Source: Chloroflexota bacterium
GTDB taxonomy: Bacteria > Chloroflexota > Dehalococcoidia > Lucifugimonadales > Lucifugimonadaceae
DNA length: 64,000 nt
Direction: 5' to 3'
Assembly (NCBI GenBank): GCA_013204555.1
Contig: JABMNO010000066.1
Coordinates: 1-64,000, forward strand
Under the pieces are notes generated by a model, which ran no database searches, was not told the DNA's origin, and worked only from the letters and a program-made list of their open reading frames with translations. Positions 53,026-56,283 of this stretch are shown here, in pieces; the first letter of the stretch is position 1, and every line of letters starts with the position of its first letter. Position numbers and translations under genes: made by a program.

Positions 53026-53074
53026 TCACACATTGTGTGACGATATTTAACATGTAAACGTCACATAAATGTGA
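53026..53074 (+). promoter_or_regulatory. Pair of related palindromic operator-like sites
   Basis: TCACACA-T-TGTGTGA (53026-53040) and TCACAT-AA-ATGTGA (53061-53074) are both perfect palindromes sharing TCACA...TGTGA ends, about 35 bp centre to centre, i.e. slightly over three helical turns. They lie in AT-rich DNA about 30-100 bp before the first hairpin of the candidate RNA. Spacing and similarity suggest binding sites for one dimeric regulator; the regulator is unknown. Confidence 0.45.
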
Positions 53075-53099: not shown

Positions 53100-53453
53100 C
53101 ATCTGATATCTTGTAAATGTCCCCCAAGGGGACGGGGTTCCAAGGAGAGGGAACCCACTGGAGATAGGTAACAAGTCGGAATCCGGAGGAGGTGAGGAAA
53201 TGGTCCGTTTACACGTATTGTTCCACGCCTGGAAAGAGCCTCTAGCCGGCCTGGGACGATCAACAGGATCGTTGCCAGGCAGCACAGGTCTCACCGGGTT
53301 TCCCACCGACACCCAGGGCGAATAGCTGAAGCCCCTCCAATGTTGAGGAACGCTTGGCAGCCACGAGGAGATAACTCCACACACGGTGGTCCGGGAACCG
53401 ACAACAGAATATCGGCTAGTAATGAAAAGGACCGGTTCCCCCCGGTCCTTTTT
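53100..53453 (+). ncRNA. Candidate structured RNA of unknown class
   Basis: A gene-free segment rich in local hairpins and ending in a strong terminator. Stems seen: GTCCCC-CAA.-GGGGAC (53119-53133), GGTTCC...GGAACC (53136-53155), the composite GCCTGG...CCAGGC enclosing ACGATC-AACAG-GATCGT (53249-53280), GGGC...GCCC (about 53316-53334) and GGAG-ATAA-CTCC (53367-53378). GGGAACCG (53393-53400) can also pair with CGGTTCCC overlapping the terminator stem, so an antiterminator switch is possible. No SRP, tmRNA, 6S or standard riboswitch core was recognised. An ACAGAA near the 3' end recalls RNase P, but the rest does not fit. Boundaries are estimates. Confidence 0.45.
53425..53453 (+). terminator. 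Rho-independent terminator of the candidate RNA
   Basis: GGACCGG (53429-53435) pairs with CCGGTCC (53442-53448) around TTCCCC, extended by AAAA and TTTT on either side and followed by TTTTT. It is a textbook terminator with no protein gene on the plus strand before it. Confidence 0.9.
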
Positions 53454-54719: not shown

Positions 54720-55331
54720 GTGCTCAACACAATCTCTGAACATCCGCTTGTGGTTTCTACCTTTCTCGCAATTACAGTGGGAATTATCACTTTCCTCACT
54801 GCGGACTCTGTCGCATGGGCAGCGATTGCCGCTGCTCTCGGTGCTGTGTTGGGATACACAGCTTCCAACTGGAAAAATATTAGACAAGGTGGTGCATCCG
54901 TGCTAGCTGCCATCAGAGACACCCTTAGATTACTCAGTAATCCATATGAAGCAATCAAGCTATCTATTGAAGCCCCAGAGATGAACCCAGACCCCAATGG
55001 TGGCCCAAAGAGTTACATACGACTCGGGCTAAGATGGCAAAACACGTCATATGTGGATGTTGAGATTAGCCATATCCGGGGTCAGGTTGGCGTTAGTAGT
55101 CCAGAAGAGGGAAATAACCTACCGCTCGTTAGCCATGTAAGACTGAAACGTCGCCAATCCACAAATGATTCACAGCGAATAATTGTGCATTTGACAGACC
55201 AAGCCTTAGGATCAGTCAATAGGTTGAGGATTGGACAAGAGCGGCAGGTGAACCTAGACGTACGTATACAGGCGAATGTCAACAACCATCCAATGGAGTT
55301 CTTTACTAGCACAAGAGCCTACTTGGACTAA
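54720..55331 (+). CDS. IS passenger: membrane-anchored protein of unknown function
   Basis: A 203-residue protein starting at GTG 54720, 76 bp inside the left end of the element. Two hydrophobic helices (about residues 11-27 and 31-46) are followed by a ~150-residue soluble domain rich in strands (SYIRLGLRWQNTSYVDVEIS, then LPLVSHVRLKRRQS). With both helices near the N-terminus, the domain would be held at the membrane. The base composition is more AT-rich than the surrounding genes. No homology recognised. It ends 1 nt before the transposase ATG, so both are on one mRNA. Confidence 0.7.
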   Translation: MLNTISEHPLVVSTFLAITVGIITFLTADSVAWAAIAAALGAVLGYTASNWKNIRQGGASVLAAIRDTLRLLSNPYEAIKLSIEAPEMNPDPNGGPKSYIRLGLRWQNTSYVDVEISHIRGQVGVSSPEEGNNLPLVSHVRLKRRQSTNDSQRIIVHLTDQALGSVNRLRIGQERQVNLDVRIQANVNNHPMEFFTSTRAYLD

Positions 55332-55332
55332 C

Positions 55333-56283
55333 ATGCCTAGACCTACCTTCCCCAAATCGTTCCCGGAGTTCGTCCGTCGCTTCTCTGACGAAGAAGCGTG
55401 TTTCCAGTACATCATCGACTCTAGATGGCCTGAGGGCTTCATGTGTGAAAAGTGTGGACATGATGGGGCTTACGCCTACGTTGGCAAGTGGACATTACGT
55501 TGCAAGAACTGCCGCAAGATTCACTCTGCTACAGCCGGGACGGTAATGCATCGCACTCGCCAACCACTCTGTACGTGGCTCTGGGCGGCATATCTAATGG
55601 TCACAGATAAACGGGGTATATCAGCCGTCCAACTACAGGCGCAATTGGGTATTGGTCGCTATGAAACAGCCTTCAACATGCTCCACAAACTACGTGCTGC
55701 AATGGTCAATCCAGCCAGGGAGAAACTTCGTGGCGTTGTTGAGGTAGACGAGACCTACATAGGTGGCCCTGTGCCGGGCAAGCGCGGCCGTGGTACAGGT
55801 AAGGCTCTGGTGATAGGGGCGGTCGAATTGCGTAATGGCAAGCCAGCCAGAATCCGACTCAAGAAGATCGGCTCTGCTAATGCTGGTAGTGTACTCAAAT
55901 TCATTACAGACAATGTGGAGCGTGGCTCCGAAGTCATTACAGATGGCTCACCTTCCTATAATGGCCTCTATGAGGGAGGATTCATACACAGCATCCAGTC
56001 CACAAGGATGTTAGGCGATGATCCTGATTCTGTGCTGCCGCACTTCCACAGGGCAGTCTCAAATATGAAGACATGGCTGCTGGGTACACACCACGGCAGA
56101 GTCAGCCAGAAGCATCTACAGGCGTATCTGAATGAGTTCGCCTTCAGATACAACCGCAGGGGAAATTTACAGGCGGCGTTCCAGACAATTCTAGGACTCG
56201 CGGATAAATCCGAAGGGCCAACGTATGAAGGACTTTACAAAGGGACATTTAGCCACAAGAACCCGGCGCTCACAAGGCACTAG
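55333..56283 (+). CDS. IS1595-family (ISXO2-like) transposase
   Basis: A 316-residue complete transposase. The N-terminal zinc ribbon has Cys pairs in CEKCGHDG and CKNCRKIH. The catalytic domain contains VEVDETYIGG (first Asp), VITDGSPSYNGL (second Asp) and YLNEFAFRYNRR (Glu plus the NRR tail), so the DDE triad looks intact. The earlier in-frame ATG at 55276 lies within the passenger gene; MPRPTFPKSF at 55333 is the usual IS1595 start. The element therefore may still be active. Confidence 0.93.
   Translation: MPRPTFPKSFPEFVRRFSDEEACFQYIIDSRWPEGFMCEKCGHDGAYAYVGKWTLRCKNCRKIHSATAGTVMHRTRQPLCTWLWAAYLMVTDKRGISAVQLQAQLGIGRYETAFNMLHKLRAAMVNPAREKLRGVVEVDETYIGGPVPGKRGRGTGKALVIGAVELRNGKPARIRLKKIGSANAGSVLKFITDNVERGSEVITDGSPSYNGLYEGGFIHSIQSTRMLGDDPDSVLPHFHRAVSNMKTWLLGTHHGRVSQKHLQAYLNEFAFRYNRRGNLQAAFQTILGLADKSEGPTYEGLYKGTFSHKNPALTRH

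Follow-up and report, generated by a model that had tools for sequence, protein, structure and literature searches.

What kind of element lies between positions 53100 and 53453 of the window (the whole 64,000-nt stretch of Chloroflexota DNA analyzed here), where a gene-free structured RNA had been annotated? The strong local stems and the textbook terminator described in that initial annotation are borne out by the sequence and by folding. The segment as a whole folds at −140.9 kcal/mol (z = −4.45), and 0 of 100 shuffled sequences were as stable. Its two 5′ hairpins jointly give a z of −2.9; several relatives have a hairpin at the place of hairpin 1, judged by eye, with differing sequences. 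The gene upstream encodes a putative cyclase and the gene downstream an APH-type kinase. No strong promoter for this copy was found when the window was searched. Immediately before the unit lie a pair of perfect palindromes, TCACACATTGTGTGA (53026–53040) and TCACATAAATGTGA (about 53061–53074), which resemble operator sites of a CRP/FNR-type regulator and were not seen upstream of the other copies inspected. Further downstream (55276–56283, plus strand), an ORF appears to encode a transposase of the IS1595 type that carries a zinc ribbon.

The segment is not gene-free. It contains an ATG-initiated ORF of 41 codons that is preceded by a Shine-Dalgarno (SD) sequence and falls under usual ORF cut-offs; its first 14 codons specify a peptide that is conserved in many genomes. 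The peptide has no Pfam match. In a homologue from the same genus (G001), the ORF is equal in length. Across the family, the micro-ORF has a core of about 14 codons and a total of usually 20–30 codons; the shortest peptides are 15 aa long (L075 and L088), and the tail is highly variable. A comparable SD was present in 56 of 59 members, and ATG, GTG, and TTG start codons swap among members. No repeated sensor codons were seen in the family alignment of the micro-ORF.

Codons 2–14 were compared across 55 unique sequences. Where codons differed, their mean BLOSUM62 score was 1.08, against −0.44 ± 0.29 for column-shuffled data (0/300), and frames 2 and 3 of the ORF head scored −0.53 and −0.70, at the null. 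Variation at His9 is confined to the third base, and almost so at Pro14, and Trp11 is invariant; the His9 and Trp11 columns are fixed partly by our own selection, because the set was chosen by the H.W motif. Distant members retrieved with a covariance model do not have His9 and retain W-x-F-P. By its substitution pattern, the head of the micro-ORF evolves as coding sequence. For the ORF, comparison of the window with the closest relative gives a dN/dS of about 0.75 on few sites (0.06 to 0.75 in other close pairs), so the claim of purifying selection does not extend to the long tail of the window copy.

The family was traced from the window outwards. DNA comparison yielded one relative, in a same-genus genome, with 79% identity and identical neighbors. 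A peptide search added the other two same-genus genomes, in which 23-codon ORFs lie at different loci, plus a genome from a second genus; a profile from those homologues extended the family to many more genomes of the order. All four same-genus genomes carry homologues with the parts in the same order, as do genomes far beyond the genus: promoter-like sequence, 5′ hairpin, SD, micro-ORF with conserved head, P1, P2, P3, and intrinsic terminator. Weak peptide matches at L042, L051, L063, and L089 failed inspection for membership and were left out of the counts; L043 contains a true member.

Among 250 genomes of the order, a DNA pattern for the ORF head hit 34, each of them once, against 3 matches for the reversed control. 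R1, a covariance model based on 18 members, all outside the window's taxonomic family, matched 79 of the 250 genomes and 44 of 97 genera; some genomes carry the element twice, several with the copies in tandem. No R1 match was obtained in about two thirds of the order's genomes; many of these assemblies are incomplete, and R1 loses divergent copies (that of G001 was missed). In the class, 20 of 363 genomes matched, nine of them outside the order. None of 331 genomes drawn from the phylum did, in a search without a positive control of its own. The ORF-head pattern had 0 matches in viral contigs, and a search of plasmids also found no member. The window copy scored 21.2 bits with R1 (E = 4e-5); the next best score in the window was 5.6, and 87 kb of unrelated DNA gave at most 5 bits. 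The window copy, though divergent, is thus a genuine member, chiefly by virtue of its SD, ORF head, and P1. The host genome has a second copy on contig C11 (L153), with the peptide MVQIYVMNHAWIGDTAGLEQA and an ORF that ends at codon 21. We are highly confident of this order-wide family of small-RNA genes and of its anatomy.

Some features of individual loci were also recorded. Tandem copies lie a few hundred bases apart at L155 (G156), L156 (G193), and L154 (G025); the peptide heads are near-identical within the G156 and G193 pairs, and for the other copy in G025 the match is limited to the model's later part. A putative MobA-like nucleotidyltransferase gene follows the unit convergently at L041, L075, L095, and L098, which belong to several families; this suggests an old shared synteny there. 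At L044 (1161–1283, minus strand), a PyrR binding site scoring 52.8 bits, against an Rfam cut-off of 54, adjoins a family member.

Compensatory change among homologues, which the initial annotation had proposed as a check, was strong. In the alignment of 67 sequences, itself fitted to R1, 92.1% of cells were paired, and 22 of 25 pairs had changes on both sides; compensatory cells numbered 238, whereas shuffles gave 69 ± 11 (0/500). Control helices shifted by up to three columns gave at most 33. A model-free alignment agreed, with 44 compensatory cells versus 14.8. Stem P1, which starts a few nucleotides past codon 15, covaries across the 67 members. The same holds family-wide for P2, which joins the stretch following P1 to the one preceding the terminator, with P3 enclosed between them. 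In the window copy, the family model fits only the SD, ORF head, and P1 well; the evidence for its P2, P3, and P4 comes from five relatives. Among these close relatives, P3 shows changes from G-C to A-U and C-G and from A-U to U-A, and P2 shows one compensatory pair. The terminator is identical in G001, and 39 of 59 members have a downstream terminator, mostly at the same place (about +210 to +260 in the family layout). Judged from this comparative record, the RNA fold evolves as structure and the terminator belongs to the unit. Two other pairings were dropped: a helix between elements 2 and 3, with 73% of cells paired versus 90% for elements 1 and 3, and a pairing of the start codon with AGCC suggested by RNAalifold, which is not maintained across members. 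The features of the window copy are collected in Table 1.

Table 1. Elements of the window copy, listed 5′ to 3′
Feature	Position	Strand	Sequence or pairing	Basis
5′ hairpin 1	53119–53133	+	GUCCCC-CAA-GGGGAC	Folding
5′ hairpin 2	53135–53156	+	GGGUUCC-AAGGAGAG-GGAACCC; loop with SD-like AAGGAG	Folding; present also in same-genus homologue
Shine-Dalgarno sequence	53185–53194	+	GGAGGAGGTG	Sequence
Micro-ORF, 41 codons + TAG	53200–53325	+	MVRLHVLFHAWKEPLAGLGRSTGSLPGSTGLTGFPTDTQGE	ORF reading, ATG start
Conserved ORF head, codons 1–14	53200–53241	+	Family motif MV[RK]x[FYH]VxxHxWx[FE]P	Peptide comparison
Stem P1	53249–53280	+	53249–53254 with 53275–53280; inner stem 53257–53261/53267–53271	Fold z −5.4
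P2, 5′ strand	53297–53308	+	GGUUUC plus CCACCG; pairs with 53384–53399	Compared with four relatives
Hairpin P4	53334–53348	+	CCUC/GAGG	Folding; CCGC/GCGG at that place in copy 2 of host genome
Hairpin P3	53367–53378	+	GGAG-AUAA-CUCC	Compensatory changes, five close relatives
P2, 3′ strand	53384–53399	+	CGGUGG and GGGAACC; includes "antiterminator" strand 53393–53400	Folding, relatives
Intrinsic terminator	53425–53453	+	AAAAGGACCGG-TTCCCC-CCGGTCCTTTTT	Sequence, folding

The best explanation overall is probably a stand-alone, translated, structured small RNA with a micro-ORF and a terminator. Its main rival is an ordinary small-protein gene, whose product would be the micropeptide and whose RNA folds would merely protect the mRNA or shape translation. 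The clear coding signature, the SD, and the unit's own terminator would suit such a gene, but P2 and P3 covary beyond the stop codon in most members, and the peptide can be very short, with a highly variable tail. Furthermore, copy 2 of the host genome shares 3′ blocks with the window; these persist outside its 21-codon ORF and are therefore conserved as RNA. We regard a small-protein gene as unlikely. A type I toxin-antitoxin system, in which a small toxic peptide is made from a structured mRNA and opposed by an antisense RNA, would fit the small peptide, the stable-looking structured mRNA, and the occasional tandem copies. However, the peptide carries conserved His, Trp, and Pro residues and, from its sequence, has no hydrophobic membrane-spanning stretch; the window offers no convincing antisense promoter, only one weak match on the minus strand; and the ORF head shows strong conservation, which most type I toxins do not. 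We judge this reading very improbable. It is scarcely credible that the unit is a divergent copy of a housekeeping RNA (RNase P, tmRNA, or 6S), despite its length, its single or double copy number, and, in the window, a chance resemblance to core sequences of RNase P (GAGGAAAnGGUCCG ... ACAGAA). The genome has a full-length RNase P RNA (RF00010) on contig C65 (319.6 bits) and a full-length tmRNA (RF00023) on C52 (151.8 bits), and neither family matched in the window, where ARAGORN also found no tmRNA. The RNase P-like identity first entertained is accordingly rejected, and the 6S-like one gained no support from the window: Rfam (4227 families, gathering scores) gave no match anywhere in it, relaxed thresholds on the segment gave chance matches only and no 6S, and in 12 relatives nothing significant was found at the position of the family element. 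The earlier statement that no known core motif is recognizable agrees with these searches. Separately, tmRNA matched strongly on contigs C64 and C148 of the single bin G001 (196.7 and 152.1 bits), perhaps from contamination or a true second copy.

The segment had also been likened to riboswitches and T-box leaders, and an orphan attenuator, in which a leader peptide is translated and the terminator governs readthrough into the next gene, has several points in its favor. The order of leader-like ORF, structured RNA, and terminator resembles one, and in the window the APH-like kinase gene runs in the same direction at a distance of about 90 nt. The proposed antiterminator pairing exists there, in that GGGAACCG (53393–53400) is exactly complementary to CGGTTCCC (53433–53440). 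By inspection, the pairing can also form in L035 with G-U pairs, but no equivalent was seen as a family feature. A better partner for the 53393–53400 strand is 53297–53302, with which it pairs as the 3′ strand of P2; this pairing is largely kept in relatives. T-boxes, riboswitches, and attenuators are expected to precede a constant co-directional gene; here, the downstream gene differs in identity between members and, when the longest ORF was used, was co-directional in 20 and convergent in 27 of 47. This variation in identity and orientation means that the unit is not the leader of one gene, and the micro-ORF has no run of sensor codons to support attenuation. Given that the first strand, compared with relatives, belongs to P2, that no family antiterminator was seen, and that the following genes are varied and often convergent, control of the next gene in cis is improbable.

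The reading as a stand-alone, translated small RNA thus retains part of the original proposal of a new regulatory RNA. The covariation, wide distribution, and lack of an Rfam match uphold a new structured RNA family, whereas the conserved micro-ORF, its most informative feature, had been overlooked. The family is apparently undescribed. It is absent from both Rfam and Pfam, so RNA and small-protein annotation alike miss it, and literature searches of open-licence papers found no published description.

In its predicted working, the family is most like the dual-function small RNAs and the attenuator RNA rnTrpL/peTrpL; by sequence it is a member of neither, nor of the Downstream-peptide motif. 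SgrS/SgrT and RNAIII are dual-function small RNAs, discrete and terminator-ended, with a short ORF. The present family is likewise a discrete, terminator-ended RNA carrying a short ORF, but its sequence and structure are unlike theirs, and the ORF head is here the most conserved part and runs into the first stem of a covarying fold. RyhB/RyhP is a further dual-function small RNA with a short ORF (PMC5331693). Two hallmarks of this class are found here: a stand-alone transcript with an intrinsic terminator, as a prediction, and a short ORF whose translation is indicated by comparative coding evidence. The peTrpL peptide is about 14 aa long, and the rnTrpL unit precedes trp genes. Both that unit and the present one consist of a leader-peptide ORF followed by structured RNA and a terminator, but the present family has neither a constant downstream gene nor a run of sensor codons. 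For the peptide of Sinorhizobium meliloti, a function in trans has been reported (PMC7298713). The Downstream-peptide motif (RF01704)/yfr6 of cyanobacteria combines a short RNA with a short, conserved ORF encoding 17–100 aa (PMC2864571). In that motif, the 5′ UTR is the conserved RNA and precedes the ORF, whereas the present family has the ORF first and does not match Rfam. tmRNA is also a structured, stable RNA of similar length with an internal ORF; the ORF described here, in contrast, has its own SD and start codon, and the genome has a real tmRNA elsewhere.

How might such an RNA work? The predicted stand-alone transcript would be roughly 300–330 nt, and a ribosome starting on the micro-ORF would run into P1. 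The stop codon lies inside the P1 loop in 41 of 56 scorable members, from which we infer that translation and P1 folding exclude each other. At codon 14, the conserved peptide would still be in the exit tunnel and may slow the ribosome, or hold it, near W-x-F-P. Because the conserved residues of a chain of ∼14 residues would still be inside the ribosome, a pause at this point would hold it at the edge of P1. Such a hold could set which fold results, or the lifetime of the RNA. As a sign of ribosome arrest, the W-x-F/E-P near codon 14 is, we stress, suggestive only. The output would be the RNA, perhaps with the peptide, acting in trans and involving no downstream gene. From the sequence comparisons, we lean slightly towards a translated structured RNA that acts in trans; nascent-peptide pausing as the switch is possible but doubtful. 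It is a bolder and rather unlikely proposal that the family represents a translation-gated RNA class, in which the pause of a built-in arrest micropeptide sets the fold or activity of the RNA, reporting ribosome state or one metabolite with no control of a gene in cis. More broadly, a large share of an order carries a conserved RNA-plus-micropeptide gene that escapes both kinds of annotation. The reversed layout, with the ORF first, the conserved RNA after it, and the stop codon in the first stem, lends itself to direct tests of the coupling of translation to folding; such systems are known only as leaders, and this one would be free-standing.
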